Source: Tychonema litorale BBK16
GTDB lineage: Bacteria; Cyanobacteriota; Cyanobacteriia; Cyanobacteriales; Microcoleaceae
Reading direction: 5' to 3'
NCBI RefSeq assembly: GCF_021648855.1
Contig: NZ_JAKJHX010000136.1
Coordinates: 1 to 13,988, forward strand
Length of the DNA stretch: 13,988 bases
Each line of letters begins with the position of its first letter. Position 1 is the first letter of the stretch. The notes under the pieces are model-generated. The model did not search any database. It saw only the letters and a list, made by a program, of their open reading frames with translations, and had not been told where the DNA came from. Positions 1,593 to 10,239 of the stretch are shown in pieces. A program made the translations under genes and the position numbers.

Positions 1593-1673
1593 AAACTCCT
1601 GAAATTGGCATTCTGACTTTCACAGTTGCGGCACAGCACCGGAATTGCACCGGACTTTCCCACTTTCAGGTTT
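1593..1673 (-). promoter_or_regulatory. Cobalamin riboswitch (short, class-II-like aptamer) controlling cobG
   Basis: Read on the minus strand, the leader carries the conserved cobalamin-aptamer landmarks in order: GTGGGAAAGT, CCGGTGCAATTCCGG, the core CCGCAACTGT, and a B12-box-like AGTCAGAATGCCA. A closing stem P1 is visible: AAACCTGAAA (1664-1673) pairs with TTTCAG and GTTT (1593-1604) across a GA bulge. At about 81 nt it is shorter than class-I elements and the spacing resembles class-II aptamers, which in other systems can prefer methyl- or hydroxocobalamin. It is followed by a hairpin at the cobG RBS, so translational repression by cobalamin is likely. The motifs are seen directly; class and ligand preference are inference. 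Confidence 0.88.
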
Positions 1674-1798
1674 TAGAAAGGTATCACAAGTCGATCGGCA
1701 TAAACCAAATCTATCGAGTTTCTTAACAAGTCTTAGGGCGAGCTCGCCTGTTTCGCGGGAAGTTCGTTTCATTGTCTTGCTGATTCCCGAATAATTTT

Positions 1799-1971: not shown

Positions 1972-3387
1972 TTGCTCACGAACTATGTTTACAAACTTCG
2001 TCCGAATCCAACACAAGATGCCAAAATGTCAAATTGGGTAGATATGTTAAGGAGTCACTATAATTGGTGTCTAAATGACAGAATCACTCTATACAACCAA
2101 CAATTTGTCCAAGGAAATTGCTGTGACATCATTCGTCAGAGAGAAGCTTGCCCTCTCACTTGTTTTGTCAGCAAAAATGGTGCAACAGGAAATCCATGGA
2201 AAGACTCGAAAATCGATTCTTCAGGTAAAGTCAAAAACCCTCGTCGCAGTGCTGGGGATATTCAAATCACAGCTTTGCCAGAGTTAAAAACAGCTAGACC
2301 TTGGTACAAAAGCATTGACTCAACGGTGCTACAACAGAATGTTAAACGCCTAGACATTGCCTACAAAAACTTCTTTGAAGGACGAGGATTTCCTAAATTC
2401 AAAAATCGGAGTAACTTTACTTCTTTTACCTTCGTAATGGGAGTTAAAATACAAGGTAATAAAATTTACCTACCCAAACTAGGTTGGATGCGGTTTTACA
2501 ACTCACGCTCAATCCCCGATGGTTTTACCATTAAAGCTTGTGCGGTGAGAAAACGGCAAAATGGCTGGTATATGTCTATTAGGATAGAGGACAAATCTAT
2601 TCCCGACTATCTCACAAAATCTCTCAAGGATGTAGTAAAAATAATTGGATGTGACCTAGGGATTACCAAATTAGTTCATTTATCTGATGGACATCAAATT
2701 AAAAACCCTAAATTCTCAACCAATAAAAAAGCTAAACGCACCCTAAAGATTAGACAGAGACGGGTTACTCGCAAACTCAAAGGCAGTAGAAATCGGAAAA
2801 AAGCTGCGAAGAAAGTTGGGCTATTTCATCAAAGAATTAGTAATAAGCGCCAAGCATATCAATGGAGAACTGCCCACAAAATAGTGGATCGAAATATTGA
2901 TGCGATTGCCTTAGAAAACTTGAATATTTCGGGCATGATGCGCCGTTGTCGAGTAAAAATTGACGAGAAAACTGAAAGATTTCTCAAAAATGGACAATCC
3001 ATCAAGAAAGGTTTAAATCGTTCTATCTCTGATGCAGGCTGGTCTAAATTAACTTTAAAGATTGAGTATCTAGCTGCGAAGCAAGGAAAAGTCGTAATTA
3101 AAGTCAATCCCAAATACTCTAGCACTGAATGCAGAAGTTGTGGCTATATTGACAAGTCTAACAGAGATGGTGAAAAATTCATTTGTGTTGAATGTGGCTA
3201 TATTGAACACGCTGATATTGGTGCTGCAAAAACGATTAGAGATAGAGCTTTAGAAATGGTACGTGGGGACTCTGCGAAACCTGGTACTATGTACCTAAAC
3301 GCCCAAAAGATATCACCACGCTCTTTGAGCAAATGTGGTGAGTTTGGGAACCCTATCACTAGGGATATTAAGGCCGGAATGTCTTAA
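1972..3387 (+). CDS. tnpB: TnpB RNA-guided endonuclease of an IS1341-type element
   Basis: TnpB proteins are RuvC nucleases guided by a right-end RNA; they cut target DNA next to a TAM and favour persistence of their transposon. This 471-aa protein looks intact: an N-terminal HTH/wedge region, RuvC motif I GCDLGIT (Asp228), motif II ALENLNISGM (Glu315), a zinc ribbon with Cys387, Cys390, Cys405 and Cys408, and motif III HADIGAAKTI (Asp415). A cysteine-containing insertion (about 45-110, with PLTC and NPRRSAGDIQITALPELK) is typical of a cyanobacterial TnpB group. The start is TTG, chosen because a full AGGAGGTGA Shine-Dalgarno (1956-1964) precedes it by seven bases, unusually strong next to other genes here. 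The C-terminal tail reads straight into the right-end hairpin. There is no tnpA partner. Activity is inferred from motifs only. Confidence 0.92.
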   Translation: MLTNYVYKLRPNPTQDAKMSNWVDMLRSHYNWCLNDRITLYNQQFVQGNCCDIIRQREACPLTCFVSKNGATGNPWKDSKIDSSGKVKNPRRSAGDIQITALPELKTARPWYKSIDSTVLQQNVKRLDIAYKNFFEGRGFPKFKNRSNFTSFTFVMGVKIQGNKIYLPKLGWMRFYNSRSIPDGFTIKACAVRKRQNGWYMSIRIEDKSIPDYLTKSLKDVVKIIGCDLGITKLVHLSDGHQIKNPKFSTNKKAKRTLKIRQRRVTRKLKGSRNRKKAAKKVGLFHQRISNKRQAYQWRTAHKIVDRNIDAIALENLNISGMMRRCRVKIDEKTERFLKNGQSIKKGLNRSISDAGWSKLTLKIEYLAAKQGKVVIKVNPKYSSTECRSCGYIDKSNRDGEKFICVECGYIEHADIGAAKTIRDRALEMVRGDSAKPGTMYLNAQKISPRSLSKCGEFGNPITRDIKAGMS

Positions 3388-5265: not shown

Positions 5266-5706
5266 TTATCCTTCTTCCTTGAGAATACAGGGAGAATAAT
5301 TTTTGGCGATCGACAAACAATTCCGTCCATCAGCCGTTCTCACATAACTGAGACTGTCCCCAATGTCTTTCATTAATTTTAGACCTCGACCCCCCGGAGC
5401 TTCAAGATCAACTTTTTCAGCAATAATTTTAATTTTTGCTTCTAAATCAAACGGATCGCCCCAATCCCAAATTTTAATCTCTACAAACTCAGCGAACATT
5501 GTGACCTGAATGTCAACAGGCAAATCCGCTGGTTTACCCTTATGGGCGTGACGAACAGCATTCGTAAAGCCCTCAGCCAAAGCCAACTGACATCTGATCC
5601 ACACACTTCTGGGAATTCGCGACTCGTACAATTGCGAAAACCATGATAAAACTTGGTCTAATCCATTTAGACCAGTATTGACTTGAAGATCCGCTTTCTT
5701 GAGCAT
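5266..5706 (-). CDS. RsbW/SpoIIAB-like serine kinase (HATPase, partner-switching)
   Basis: Proteins of this GHKL ATPase family are serine kinases that phosphorylate a STAS antagonist and hold a target protein, often a sigma factor, in check. From the ATG at 5706 it has 146 aa. The N-box is CQLALAEGFTNAVRHAH (Glu45, Asn49), the G1 box DWGDPFD (81-87) and the G2 box GGRGLKLMKDIGD (105-117). The frame is open back to a TTG at 5790 and includes GTG and TTG alternatives, but the extra N-terminus does not look like the domain. None of the starts has a strong Shine-Dalgarno, so the start is uncertain. The matching phosphatase and STAS genes lie within 2.1 kb. No sigma factor is adjacent, so the controlled target is unknown. 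Confidence 0.82.
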   Translation of the reverse strand: MLKKADLQVNTGLNGLDQVLSWFSQLYESRIPRSVWIRCQLALAEGFTNAVRHAHKGKPADLPVDIQVTMFAEFVEIKIWDWGDPFDLEAKIKIIAEKVDLEAPGGRGLKLMKDIGDSLSYVRTADGRNCLSIAKNYSPCILKEEG

Positions 5707-6252
5707 CGGCAACTTTTCGGAACCTTTGAATTCAATCACTCTGGACCACTGAAATTCTTCATCGGCCGACGGGCAAATACAACGAGACAAAATAGAACAG
5801 TGGCAAAATTGAATGGTAATTTGAGGATACTAGCTTTGGTCGGCCGTCGAGCGATGTTTAATCCACTAATCGGTTAAGTACGATACCATACATAGCACTT
5901 CCATGTCAACCAGCGCCTCTAGAAAATAAAAGTAACCAGAATGATAGATTCCAAGGCAGTGCCGTTTCCCCACAATAAATCACGGTAGGGACATTGCACG
6001 TGCCGTGTCCTGGCTGTGGGTAATATTAATTCTGAATGCTACCGGATTTGATATGATATGATCAAAATTGAGTCAAACATTGAGTATAACTAAACAAGAA
6101 ATACTCAATAAACTTAAACAGCGTAGTTTTTCGGGATTTGTCCGGGTTTTTAGAGGCTGTCAATAGACTATACTCAATCTCAGGTCAAGGCGCTGATAGG
6201 ATGTATTTTGAGTGACCCCCAGACGTTGAAAGACTTGTAGTACCTGAGTGCC
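5707..6252. other. Long intergenic region upstream of the kinase and phosphatase genes
   Basis: This 546-bp region separates two divergently read partner-switching genes and should hold both promoters. It contains two decayed palindromes (5951-6010), a 9-bp inverted repeat ATTGAGTAT (6079-6087) / ATACTCAAT (6101-6109), and AT-rich TATGAT-like hexamers at 6052-6062 without a good -35. A 28-codon frame from a TTG at 6080 to a TAG at 6166 is discussed as a possible gene remnant. I see no convincing gene or strong sigma-70-type promoter. Confidence 0.5.
5951..6010. repeat. Two decayed members of the GGGACA...TGTCCC palindromic repeat family
   Basis: The segment around 5951-5970 carries GGCAGTGCCGTTTCCC, resembling half of the intact palindrome at 7915-7941. 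At 5989-6010, GGACA and TGTCC flank a GCACGTGC core with two mismatched bases on each side. Both look like worn copies of the same short palindromic intergenic repeat seen again at 11961-12052. Confidence 0.5.
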
Positions 6253-7389
6253 ATGTTTCAAATTCTGGTTATAGACGATGATACTGCTGTTCAAGAACTA
6301 CTGAGAAGAACCCTGAAAAAACAGGGTTACGAAGTAACGGTAGCAAGTAACGGCGAAGACGGTATAGCAGAGGCGCAAAAATTGCGTCCTGCTTTGATCA
6401 TTTGCGATTGGATCATGCCACGCTTGACAGGCATTGACGTGTGTCGTCGAGTCAAGGCAGATCCTGATCTGTCAACTACTCAATTCTTTTTGCTGACTTC
6501 TTTGGGGTCGATCGCCGATCGAGTCAAAGGACTTGACGCAGGTGCCGATGATTTTATTTCCAAACCCATTGAACTCAACGAGTTACAGGCGAGAGTGCGC
6601 GCCGGACTAAGGCTGCACCAACTCAGTCGAGATTTAAAAATTGCCAAGCAAAGTCTGGAAGCAGAACTAGCTGAGGCCGCGGAGTATGTGCAGTCCCTAT
6701 TGCCAGATCCGATGGTGGAACCTGTCAGCATTGAGTCAAAATTCATTCCTTCCCGACAGTTGGGAGGAGATTGCTTTGACTACAACTGGCTGGACTCAAA
6801 TTATTTAGCGATTTACTTGCTTGACGTAGCCGGACACGGTTTGCGGGCGGCGCTACCTTCTGTGGCGGTGTTGAATTTGTTGCGATCGCGCGCGCTACCC
6901 AACATTGACTACTACAAGCCCAGCGACGTTTTACGCGCCCTGAACACCACCTTCCAGATGAGTTACCAAAATGATAAATATTTCACCATCTGGTATGGAG
7001 TTTACAACCGGAGCGATCGCACATTAGTTTACGCCAGCGCCGGCCATCCCCCCGCGGTATTGATTTCTCAGTCCCCCACCAGCAAAGCCAAAGTCCAGCA
7101 ACTAAGAACCCCCGGAATGCCTGTCGGAATGTTTCCCGATGCCCGGTATCTCGATAATTGCTGCGAAGTCGAAGATTTGAGCACTCTCTACATCTTCAGC
7201 GACGGGGTATACGAGATTAATCAACCCGATGGCAATATCTGGGGACTCGATCCTTTCATCGACTTGTTAGCAGCTTACAACGGTGGAACTGCCGACCAGT
7301 TAGAGTTGGTTTTGAGCTACACTCAAAAATTGAATGCTAAAGCAGTTTTTGACGATGACTGGTCTTTGCTCAAGGTAAACTTTGGCTAA
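6253..7389 (+). CDS. Receiver-PP2C response regulator phosphatase (RsbU/SpoIIE-like)
   Basis: The 378-aa protein joins a phospho-acceptor receiver to a PP2C-type serine phosphatase. The receiver (about 3-118) has the acidic pocket Asp8-Asp9, phosphorylation site Asp52 in CDWIMP, Thr82 and Lys104 in SKP. A short coiled linker (about 125-150) follows. The SpoIIE phosphatase domain (about 158-377) shows GGDCFD (Asp173), DVAGHGLRAAL (Asp191), YASAGHPP, FSDGVYE (Asp317) and a terminal DDDWSLLK, so the metal-binding acids are present. Such proteins dephosphorylate a STAS antagonist in response to a histidine kinase. The STAS gene lies 64 bp downstream in the opposite direction and the kinase-type gene upstream. 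No cognate histidine kinase is in the window. The ATG has no clear Shine-Dalgarno. Confidence 0.92.
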   Translation: MFQILVIDDDTAVQELLRRTLKKQGYEVTVASNGEDGIAEAQKLRPALIICDWIMPRLTGIDVCRRVKADPDLSTTQFFLLTSLGSIADRVKGLDAGADDFISKPIELNELQARVRAGLRLHQLSRDLKIAKQSLEAELAEAAEYVQSLLPDPMVEPVSIESKFIPSRQLGGDCFDYNWLDSNYLAIYLLDVAGHGLRAALPSVAVLNLLRSRALPNIDYYKPSDVLRALNTTFQMSYQNDKYFTIWYGVYNRSDRTLVYASAGHPPAVLISQSPTSKAKVQQLRTPGMPVGMFPDARYLDNCCEVEDLSTLYIFSDGVYEINQPDGNIWGLDPFIDLLAAYNGGTADQLELVLSYTQKLNAKAVFDDDWSLLKVNFG

Positions 7390-7391
7390 CC

Positions 7392-7431
7392 GACTTCTGG
7401 CTGCATATCTGCGATCGCATAGCCAGAAGTC
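7392..7431. terminator. Strong stem-loop between convergent phosphatase and STAS genes
   Basis: GACTTCTGGCT (7392-7402) and AGCCAGAAGTC (7421-7431) form a perfect 11-bp stem around an 18-nt loop that contains a HIP1 octamer. The stem lies in the 64-bp gap between convergent genes, starting 3 bp after the phosphatase stop. No U-run follows on either strand, so it probably protects 3' ends or stops transcription from both sides without a classical tail. Confidence 0.55.
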
Positions 7432-7453
7432 AGCAGCCAAAAGATTTAGTATT

Positions 7454-7774
7454 TTATAGCAGAATCTTGCTATTAAAAGCCTCACGGGTGGAAAATATCT
7501 CAAAAACTCGATCCATGCTGGTGAGTTCAAATAAGATGCGGATTTGCTCGTTGATAGAACAGACGACTAACTGACTACCAGCAGCCCTGACTGTTTTGAG
7601 CGCCAAGACTAAAGCGCCCAAACCCGAACTGTCCATAAATGTCACATCTTGGAAGTCTATCAATACCACATCGGCTCCAGCTTCCACTAGGTCGCTAATC
7701 TCTAGGCGAAATTGACTTGCTTTAGTGCCGTCTAAGATGCCAGAGGGTTGAATAATTTTAACTACAGGACTCAT
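7454..7774 (-). CDS. STAS-domain anti-sigma factor antagonist (RsbV/SpoIIAA-like)
   Basis: This 106-aa single-domain protein is the third partner of the switching set: in its unphosphorylated form it binds the RsbW-like kinase and frees the kinase's target. The STAS core is clear, with VVLIDFQDVTFMDSSGLGAL (36-55), where one of the serines of DSSG (49-50) would be the phosphorylation site, followed by LVLALKTVRAAGSQLVVC. The frame stays open to 7846, but the extra N-terminus (MARSPSRSYTNVV) lacks domain character and the ATG at 7774 gives the usual family length. The gene runs toward the phosphatase gene. Its distance from the kinase gene means the stoichiometry of the three is not set by one operon. 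Confidence 0.88.
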   Translation of the reverse strand: MSPVVKIIQPSGILDGTKASQFRLEISDLVEAGADVVLIDFQDVTFMDSSGLGALVLALKTVRAAGSQLVVCSINEQIRILFELTSMDRVFEIFSTREAFNSKILL

Positions 7775-7870
7775 ATTTTGCAGTAGGAATGTCAGAATTT
7801 CTAGCCAGACTACGTTAGTATAGCTGCGAGACGGACTCCGAGCCAAATAGGGGCAGAGGAAAACAAGATG

Positions 7871-8753: not shown

Positions 8754-9305
8754 CTATTTCACAGCTACTTTTTCAGAAACGGCTACAGTTGCCGTTGTCG
8801 CTGAACCTTGCAAGTGTGCTTCCAGGAACCACAAACGCTTGTCAATTGCCCGCGAAATTTCGGTATACAAGTCAGCGGTGTCAGCGTCACCGAGTTCCCC
8901 TGCTTTATCTATGGCGACTCGCAGGTGTTGGGCATAGGGTGCGTAGCGATCGGCCAAAGCCGTCAGGTACTCTTTACCATCTAAAATATCGAAAGGAAAT
9001 TCGGGCAAAATCGAATCTGCCGCCGCTGTGCGGGCTGTTCCTACCGCTAAACCGCCCAAAGCTGTGACCCGTTCAGCAACCGTATCCACATATTCTTCGA
9101 GTTCTGTTGCCATTTCATCAAATAGCAAATGTAGCTGGTAAAAGTCCATGCCTTTGACGTTCCAGTGAGCTTGCTTGACTTGGGTTTTCAAGTCCAGAGT
9201 CGTTGCTAGCGTAGCGTTGAGCAGCCCGACTATATTCGATCGAGTTCCTACTGGCATATCGATGCGAGTTGGATAAAGGCGTTGTTTGTGGTTGTTCAGA
9301 CTCAT
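8754..9305 (-). CDS. dps: Dps-family mini-ferritin (DNA protection during starvation)
   Basis: Dps proteins form 12-subunit shells that oxidise Fe(II), often with H2O2, and store iron, limiting Fenton damage to DNA. The 183-aa sequence shows the full intersubunit ferroxidase set in Dps spacing: His47 in KQAHWNVKG, His59, Asp63 and then Asp74 and Glu78 in EEYVDTVAERV. The rest is the helical ferritin-like core, ending in a Thr/Ala/Val-rich tail after about residue 165. The ATG at 9305 has AAGG about ten bases upstream. It lies 60 bp downstream of the sulfiredoxin gene on the same strand, so co-transcription is likely and fits peroxide defence. No separate promoter is visible in the 60-bp gap. 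Confidence 0.93.
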   Translation of the reverse strand: MSLNNHKQRLYPTRIDMPVGTRSNIVGLLNATLATTLDLKTQVKQAHWNVKGMDFYQLHLLFDEMATELEEYVDTVAERVTALGGLAVGTARTAAADSILPEFPFDILDGKEYLTALADRYAPYAQHLRVAIDKAGELGDADTADLYTEISRAIDKRLWFLEAHLQGSATTATVAVSEKVAVK

Positions 9306-9692: not shown

Positions 9693-9802
9693 TAGGACTG
9701 ACGCATCGGGCCCAGAAACCGGGTTTTTTTACGAAAATACTTGATTGTCACCTACAGATTAGGTGAAAAACCCGGTTTCTGCGTCGGAGTGCGTCAGTCC
9801 TA
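9693..9802. mobile_element. 110-bp MITE with 13-bp TIRs and 5-bp target duplication
   Basis: The ends TAGGACTGACGCA (9693-9705) and TGCGTCAGTCCTA (9790-9802) are perfect inverted repeats, flanked on both sides by ATGTA (9688-9692 and 9803-9807). Inside, CAGAAACCGGGTTTTT (9713-9728) pairs perfectly with 9766-9781, and TCACCT/AGGTGA form an inner stem with a 7-nt loop. There is no coding capacity. It would need a transposase in trans from an IS with matching ends, which is not present here. Ends of this kind are, from general knowledge, common in cyanobacterial genomes. Confidence 0.85.
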
Positions 9803-9807
9803 ATGTA

Positions 9808-9836
9808 TTGACGTTTGAAAGCCCTAAAGTTATAAT
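9808..9836 (+). promoter_or_regulatory. Near-consensus sigma-70 promoter of the predicted small RNA
   Basis: TTGACG (9808-9813), a 17-bp spacer and TATAAT (9831-9836) make the best promoter match in the window. The -35 box starts directly after the right target duplication of the MITE. No coding frame follows on the plus strand; instead a structured 70-nt segment with a terminator does. Confidence 0.75.
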
Positions 9837-9842
9837 TTTATT

Positions 9843-9912
9843 AGGCAAAGCCTAGGGGTAGTCGTTACGACTGCCGCATCATAACCGCTGAAGAGGCGGT
9901 TTTGCTGTTTTT
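9843..9912 (+). ncRNA. Predicted small structured RNA, about 70 nt, unidentified
   Basis: Transcription from the promoter at 9808-9836 would start near A9843. Three hairpins follow: AGGC-AAA-GCCT (9843-9853); an 8-bp stem GGTAGTCG/CGACTGCC with a UUA loop and one G-U pair (9857-9875); and AACCGC/GCGGTT with a 7-nt loop (9883-9901). The last leads to TTTGCTGTTTTT, a terminator-like tail. Seven or so bases, GCATCAT (9876-9882), between hairpins 2 and 3 are single-stranded and could be a seed. I do not recognise a known cyanobacterial RNA; the common Yfr1 motif ACUCCUCACAC is absent. It lies divergent from srx-dps and convergent with the small hypothetical gene, whose stop codon it touches. Confidence 0.6.
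9883..9912 (+). terminator. Intrinsic terminator of the predicted small RNA
   Basis: The 6-bp stem AACCGC/GCGGTT is followed by a T-rich tail broken by GC and G and ending in five T. It may also serve the convergent gene on the minus strand, which ends at 9911, though no U-run follows on that side. Confidence 0.6.
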
Positions 9913-10198
9913 AAGGTCGCTCGAAGCAATAGTATTTAATACCTAATTGGTCTATTTGACTAGGCTCTAGGTCGCAGTCTACAAGTAACTTTTTTTCTTT
10001 CAAAGATAAGAAAGCTCGATTATCAGGCTGGTCTTGGCTGCGCGCAACGGGATATAAGCACAAATCAGTTAGTTGCATTACTAGGTTATTTTTTGTTTTG
10101 CTATCTATACCGCGTAGCAGTCTCGAAAAATCCGTGTTAGATAATGGCGAGTATTGACTAGATCGATCGGAATCGAAAGGATTGCCTTGCGATCGCAA
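9911..10198 (-). CDS. Small hypothetical protein
   Basis: I do not recognise this 95-aa protein. It has no membrane segment, signal peptide or cysteine cluster. The first 40 residues are polar and Ser-rich (SDRSSQYSPLSNTDFSRLL); the rest looks like a small folded domain, with LVMQLTDLCLYPVARSQ, then FLSLKEKKLLVDCDLEPSQ and a closing IKYYCFERP. The frame starts at a TTG without a good Shine-Dalgarno. An internal ATG at 10078 would give only 55 aa. Codon choice looks like that of its neighbours. It is divergent from the SpoIID gene and ends within the terminator tail of the predicted small RNA. It could be a real gene or chance; there is no function to assign. Confidence 0.5.
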   Translation of the reverse strand: MRSQGNPFDSDRSSQYSPLSNTDFSRLLRGIDSKTKNNLVMQLTDLCLYPVARSQDQPDNRAFLSLKEKKLLVDCDLEPSQIDQLGIKYYCFERP

Positions 10199-10210
10199 CT
10201 CATTGAAATA

Positions 10211-10239
10211 TTGCTTAAACAGATGTGCTAACGTACAAT
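10211..10239 (+). promoter_or_regulatory. Candidate sigma-70-type promoter of the SpoIID/LytB gene
   Basis: TTGCTT (10211-10216) and TACAAT (10234-10239) are separated by 17 bp. Transcription would begin near 10246, giving a leader of about 33 nt that contains GGGAG (10264-10268) ten bases before the GTG start. Confidence 0.6.

Follow-up and report, generated by a model that had tools for sequence, protein, structure and literature searches.

An RNA gene facing the remnant of a DUF3800 gene

The window, that is, the whole 13,988-nt stretch of Tychonema litorale BBK16 DNA analysed here, contains on its plus strand a small RNA gene that heads into the 3′ end of an oppositely oriented DUF3800 gene, so that the two lie tail to tail (Table 1; all coordinates are window positions). 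What is left of the DUF3800 gene is a C-terminal remnant of 95 aa, which is 63% identical over 93 residues to a DUF3800 protein of Chlorogloeopsis. The remnant alone matched no Pfam family, and the three full-length relatives scanned all matched PF12686 (DUF3800), with E values of 2.4e-11 to 2.5e-14. The stop codon of the remnant (9911–9913, minus strand) overlaps the T-tract of the RNA by 2 nt.

Table 1. Features of the RNA gene and its convergent neighbour in the window
Feature	Position	Strand	Basis
Promoter, TTGACG (9808–9813)-N17-TATAAT (9831–9836)	9808–9836	+	Promoter scan; kept upstream in relatives
Predicted DUF3800-linked small RNA, about 70 nt; first base likely 9843	9842–9912	+	Covariance model, fold
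Hairpin 1, AGGC-AAA-GCCT	9843–9853	+	Two-sided changes in 4/5 modelled pairs
Linker AGG, next to the opening GG of hairpin 2	9854–9856	+	GGGG 9855–9858 invariant in the 19-sequence alignment
Hairpin 2, GGTAGTCG-TTA-CGACTGCC, with U.G wobble 9859/9873	9857–9875	+	Covariation
GCATCAT, only the first G invariant	9876–9882	+	19-sequence alignment
Intrinsic terminator, AACCGC...GCGGTT and T-rich tail	9883–9912	+	Two-sided changes in 4/6 modelled pairs (cyanobacteria)
C-terminal remnant of the convergent DUF3800 gene, profile positions 166–267	9911–10225	−	Profile and protein comparison

Between positions 9000 and 10800 the promoter, which agrees with the consensus at 11 of 12 positions, ranked first among five promoter-like sites, against 2.1 expected, and one terminator-like site was found (stem 9883–9901), against 2.2 expected. 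Neither scan is significant alone, since both counts are near chance. The candidate is raised above chance by its conservation, namely by DNA and covariance-model matches, by covariation, and by a promoter that is kept in distant genera. The strand from 9843 to 9912 (70 nt) folds with −28.1 kcal/mol (z −3.47) and beats 200 of 200 shuffles. The covariance model described below matched 9842–9912 with an E value of 2.4e-18, the window sequence being one of the 19 on which that model was built.

A 108-bp near-palindromic repeat resembling a miniature inverted-repeat transposable element (9695–9802) ends just upstream of the RNA promoter; at least 39 copies of it were found in the same genome at E ≤ 1e-8, with 40 of 136 first-look candidates scored.

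Distribution and conservation of the RNA

When 291 genomes of the order Cyanobacteriales were searched with the DNA sequence, 25 matched at E ≤ 0.01, two of which (G179 and G238) gave matches of 22–23 nt that are probably due to chance. Alignment A1, made from 19 of the 25 loci, was used to build a covariance model (R1); loci L005–L007 were left out for a duplication, L018 because it was cut off, and L024 and L025 as weak. At E ≤ 0.001 this model found the RNA in 32 of the 291 genomes and in 18 of 121 genera of the order, including 7 of the 16 genomes that belong to the window's genus; these genome-wide counts are lower bounds owing to stricter Infernal filters. Scanning named genomes with a strict pattern gave 23 records, including Microcoleus vaginatus, Lyngbya, Phormidium, Dolichospermum, Chlorogloeopsis, Calothrix, Prochloron, and Crocosphaera; Nostoc sp. 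PCC 7120 and Synechocystis sp. PCC 6803 were absent from the matches to this strict pattern. In the rest of the phylum, where the same filters again make the count a lower bound, covariance-model matches occurred in at least 25 of 386 genomes, and 10 were accepted as the RNA. Twelve matches outside the order (family f47, 23.5–27.2 bits) were rejected as chance terminators on inspection, and for three others (L105 at 32.6 bits, L110, and L116) a DUF3800 match was absent from the retrieved locus. A phage or virus home was rejected: 33 IMG/VR stretches fitted a peptide pattern and none encodes a relative. A search for a phage origin likewise gave no match among 50,697 phage records.

Promoter conservation was analysed in 35 chosen loci, 29 cyanobacterial and 6 rhizobial. 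The results showed that at least 9 of the 12 promoter positions were present at the right distance in 27 of the 35 loci, compared with 5.8% of shuffles, and at least 8 positions in 31 loci, compared with 27% of shuffles. Alignment A3 comprised 35 loci picked by the author (32 distinct rows); it contained two-sided changes in 10 of 18 pairs, 96.9% of its cells were paired, its covariation score was reached by none of 500 shuffles, and the signal vanished when the partners were slid. In a two-phylum alignment (A6) of 24 loci picked by the author, from which L143–L145 and L150 were excluded as near-duplicates, 14 of the 18 pairs had two-sided changes. Of these 24 sequences, 23 have U.G as the third pair of hairpin 2, and the pair after it varies among A-U, C-G, G-C, and U-A. 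The outermost modelled pair of hairpin 1 (9842/9854) does not form in 10 of 32 cyanobacterial rows and in 14 of 24 two-phylum rows. By computation, the promoter, fold, and terminator of the RNA gene are conserved. It is therefore highly improbable that the locus holds no RNA gene but either a promoter and hairpin arisen by chance or a two-way terminator serving the DUF3800 gene; the near-chance counts of the two scans would suit such an arrangement, and the covariation and promoter conservation argue against it.

The preliminary description of this DNA had proposed an independent RNA gene with this promoter and terminator, and had matched it to no RNA family. The sequence comparisons agree with it on these points: promoter and terminator are conserved, conservation and covariation support a gene of its own, and no Rfam family reached its threshold. 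It had also held that a failure to conserve the stems and TATAAT in relatives would speak against the gene; the relatives keep both, as the covariation and the 27 promoter-bearing loci attest. Its 8-bp stem with a UUA loop can form in hairpin 2 (9857–9864 with 9868–9875), although the minimum-energy fold gives 7 pairs and a 5-nt loop. Its proposal that an exposed GCATCAT acts as a seed did not hold, since the segment is mostly paired in the predicted fold and is replaced in relatives, for example by GACTCA, GATCGAC, or GAAATAT; the seed was rejected because it varies across the 19 sequences. The description made no mention of the DUF3800 remnant whose stop codon touches the RNA.

Linkage to the DUF3800 gene

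A profile of the DUF3800 subfamily matched 23 of the 291 genomes at E ≤ 1e-20. Both RNA and protein were present in 20 genomes, the RNA only in 12, the protein only in 3, and neither in 256 (Fisher p = 9e-20, shared ancestry ignored), and the two genes adjoin in all 20 genomes carrying both. Measured in 27 loci, the overlap between stop codon and T-tract is exactly 2 nt in 20 and ranges from −16 to +16 in the other 7, partly depending on how the T-run is called. The copy in Geminocystis NIES-3709 is plasmid-borne. Chlorogloeopsis fritschii has both partners intact, and a DUF3800 relative is listed for Fischerella thermalis. The linkage between the RNA and DUF3800 is well supported.

This linkage bears on the possibility that the RNA is a stand-alone small RNA acting in trans through a seed on distant mRNAs, with DUF3800 a mere neighbour. 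The 12 of 32 RNA-positive genomes whose proteins gave no match at the above threshold are in keeping with it, as is the GGGG shared by linker and hairpin 2, which is invariant across the 19 sequences and has exceptions in the wider set. DUF3800, however, is the recurrent neighbour, in a second phylum as well, and the proposed seed varies; we consider such a role quite improbable.

With the stop codon at the end of the T-tract, a 3′ untranslated region on the DUF3800 mRNA would run across the RNA. This geometry would suit a cis-antisense arrangement, in which the mRNA extends past its stop codon to include the RNA's complement and is base-paired by the RNA at this 3′ end, in the style of type I toxin–antitoxin systems. 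Antisense pairing does not need compensatory changes, yet the stems covary across phyla, and this arrangement appears rather improbable. Pairing with the start region of the DUF3800 mRNA was rejected, since eight loci gave no consistent signal (z from −3.3, in L076 only, to +1.1).

The RNA beside DUF3800 genes on alphaproteobacterial plasmids

We searched plasmids with the Chlorogloeopsis protein by tblastn and obtained 38 records, mostly from Sinorhizobium (19) and Rhizobium (11); among the matches listed, the alphaproteobacterial ones were 34.6–38.4% identical. One plasmid that carries a DUF3800 gene is pSmeSM11b of Sinorhizobium meliloti. Seventeen alphaproteobacterial loci, 56 kb in total, were examined with a covariance model (R2) trained on cyanobacterial RNAs alone. 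The results showed that in 12 of the 17 loci the model placed the RNA at the 3′ end of the DUF3800 gene, on the strand opposite to it (20.3–30.2 bits, E 5.5e-6 to 0.0018 for the 56 kb), and the next best match elsewhere in the same 56 kb scored 10.1 bits.

Two of the five plasmid loci without a match, from Methylorubrum and Shinella (L148 and L149), carry a distant DUF3800 gene whose proteins are 27.7–29.8% identical. By eye, the strand opposite this gene shows, downstream of base 1752 (minus strand), a promoter-like stretch together with a hairpin and a terminator whose sequence differs, and this element is perhaps a further DUF3800-linked RNA family.

Decay of the protein and retention of the RNA

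The DUF3800 protein looks broken in at least 6 of the 20 linked pairs (those of the window's genome G000 and of G038, G085, G097, G134, and G212). In 4 of the 12 RNA-only genomes, all Microcoleus, a fragment of the gene adjoins the RNA, the best alignment covering query residues 34–68 at 71–77% identity. No DUF3800 match was found in six other RNA-only loci of about 3 kb each (L009, L020, L021, L031, L053, and L054); L018 reaches the end of its contig, and G002 stood outside the locus comparison. Across the four Microcoleus genomes the RNA is about 98.5% identical and the flanking blocks are 78–100% identical, which is weak evidence of constraint on the RNA within this group. By computation, the protein has decayed repeatedly while the adjoining RNA continues to match the full model. 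For the window itself, the best explanation includes the view that the nuclease gene has already been lost and the RNA is an orphan, to which we give about an even chance.

Neighbouring genes and other features of the window

Open reading frames were listed around 12 loci, and the flanks differed outside Microcoleus, with RuBisCO and pntB-like genes recognised by eye. The sulfiredoxin (srx) and dps genes stand beside the RNA in Microcoleus loci only, and other genes flank it in other genera. The oxidative- or iron-stress role that had been suggested from these genes was therefore rejected, the recurrent neighbour being DUF3800. Ten toxin-like-looking neighbours were chosen from 4 of the 12 loci; they matched PIN (two, one of them below the cut-off), PemK/MazF-like, HicA, HicB-like, XisH, XisI, DUF5615, and DUF433 families, and one had no family match.

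In the nine genomes of the window's genus that lack the RNA, the sulfiredoxin region was located in eight. By eye, the site of the RNA module downstream of the sulfiredoxin gene holds a DUF433 gene in three loci (L122, L123, and L129), followed in two of them by a DUF5615-type frame, one frame being interrupted. The site looks like an insertion hotspot.

Elsewhere in the window, an AdoCbl-II cobalamin riboswitch (1598–1677, minus strand, 55.8 bits) lies at the start of a nitrite/sulfite-reductase-like gene (95–1663), and an IS605 OrfB/TnpB-like protein of 471 aa with a TTG start is encoded at 1972–3387 (plus strand). The region 5266–7846 holds a possible partner-switching set of an ATPase-fold kinase-like protein, a response regulator with a SpoIIE phosphatase, and a STAS protein.

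Comparison with known RNAs and systems

Weinberg et al. reportedly described eleven DUF3800-associated RNA motifs in 2017. Such motifs are small structured RNAs tied to DUF3800 genes, and the present RNA has both features. The Rfam 15 paper includes RF02969 (DUF3800-I) and RF02968 (DUF3800-IX), so DUF3800-linked RNAs are a known kind. At the RNA, no Rfam family reached its threshold in the window, in 16 loci, or in 18 plasmid loci; DUF3800 models were not listed at E up to 10 in the window stretch, at E up to 5 in the 16 loci, or in any of the 18 plasmid loci. Sub-threshold overlaps with OrzO-P (E 4.3), STnc420, isrK, and BjrC68 were treated as chance. RF02969 and RF02968 each matched 0 of 194 genomes, which shows little because the controls matched nowhere either. 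Since DUF3800-linked RNAs are known and no DUF3800 model matches, the RNA is, on sequence comparison, a putative new family of that kind, to be filed with these RNAs and predicted to work like them. As far as the available text outside the supplements goes, the 70-nt RNA is described nowhere in the literature found on DUF3800, cyanobacterial small RNAs, NsiR4, the 224-motif survey, or small RNAs of Microcoleus srx/dps.

In type III toxin–antitoxin systems (ToxIN, CptIN), a structured RNA of tandem repeats lies upstream of a nuclease-like gene on the same strand and neutralises its toxic product. The present module resembles them in joining a structured RNA to a nuclease-like gene, in its patchy lineages, and in its occurrence on plasmids. 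It differs in that the RNA is convergent, has its own promoter, and gives one match per genome searched rather than a tandem array, and in the RNase H fold predicted for the protein. Retron type VII has a DUF3800 effector; no reverse transcriptase was noticed by eye among the open reading frames around the 12 loci, where no profile search was made.

NsiR4 is a short conserved cyanobacterial small RNA that lies tail to tail with alr3725 (PMC4734099). The present RNA is likewise short, conserved, and convergent with a gene, but it is patchy (32/291) and tied to DUF3800. NsiR4 is further characterised by an NtcA-controlled promoter.

A proposed mechanism

Two sources (PMC10910872, PMC12669027) treat DUF3800 as an RNase H-fold domain associated with putative non-coding RNAs and with Cas12a2 (V-A2) and VI-F CRISPR loci, in which it is thought to work with RNA. 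No cas genes were noticed by eye among the open reading frames around the 12 loci; cas genes and CRISPR arrays were not searched for. The DUF3800 protein of the present module is predicted to have an RNase H-like fold. The associations of DUF3800 in these sources speak for the main rival explanation: the RNA could be a guide or activating cofactor that DUF3800 needs in order to act, rather than one that holds it back, and the conserved structure and U.G pair would suit recognition by a protein. No variable guide segment was evident by eye in the alignments, and a mere cofactor would be less likely to persist once its protein is gone, as this RNA does; we regard a cofactor role as unlikely.

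Restraint of the nuclease is favoured for three reasons: conservation falls on a structure and not on a seed, a separate promoter precedes the RNA, and genomes lose the protein more readily than they lose the RNA. We infer a mechanism in which the RNA would be made independently from its own promoter and would adopt a shape made of hairpin 1, a short linker, and hairpin 2, in which the U.G pair is fixed. This shape would be recognised by DUF3800, and the bound RNA would silence the nuclease until phage or another stress altered the RNA; the two would thus form a toxin–antitoxin-like or defence unit. That Cyanobacteriales and rhizobial plasmids share a two-component module, in which a structured 70-nt RNA restrains the product of a convergent DUF3800 gene, predicted to have an RNase H fold, is a reading whose chances we consider evenly balanced. 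More tentatively, and with somewhat less confidence, the pair may be a previously unlisted RNA–nuclease module of cyanobacteria and rhizobia, in which the RNA, read through its U.G hairpin, is the antitoxin or switch of DUF3800 in plasmid maintenance or phage defence.

Several observations weigh against restraint of a nuclease by the RNA. For the DUF3800 protein, Foldseek gave no match at E ≤ 0.001 and PADLOC gave weak matches only, and G249 has a full-length, more distant relative with the RNA match absent. Alignments A3 and A6 were both fitted to the model and are thereby biased towards the structure, and the number of pair types in A6, one of five measures, was reached by 43 of 500 shuffles. 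The alphaproteobacterial scores lie in the range of the chance terminators found genome-wide; such scores arise by chance in whole genomes, so the position beside DUF3800 carries the claim. The 12 matching plasmid loci amount to about five sequence types, and 5 of the 17 (L134, L146, L147, L148, and L149) had no R2 match. In three of the four RNA-only Microcoleus genomes a 14-nt segment is duplicated ahead of the terminator, and across the four the best flanking blocks are conserved at least as well as the RNA. The RNA without the protein in 12 of 32 genomes may reflect a separate job or slow decay.

If the RNA does restrain DUF3800, an RNA that outlives its toxin could protect the host from incoming copies. 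For the study of DUF3800 proteins and their RNA partners, the present family offers a compact and simple RNA of 70 nt, with two hairpins and a terminator, interlocked with the protein gene. It occurs on plasmids of well-studied rhizobia, and the genomes that have lost the protein and kept the RNA are natural experiments, which makes the role of DUF3800 RNAs directly testable.
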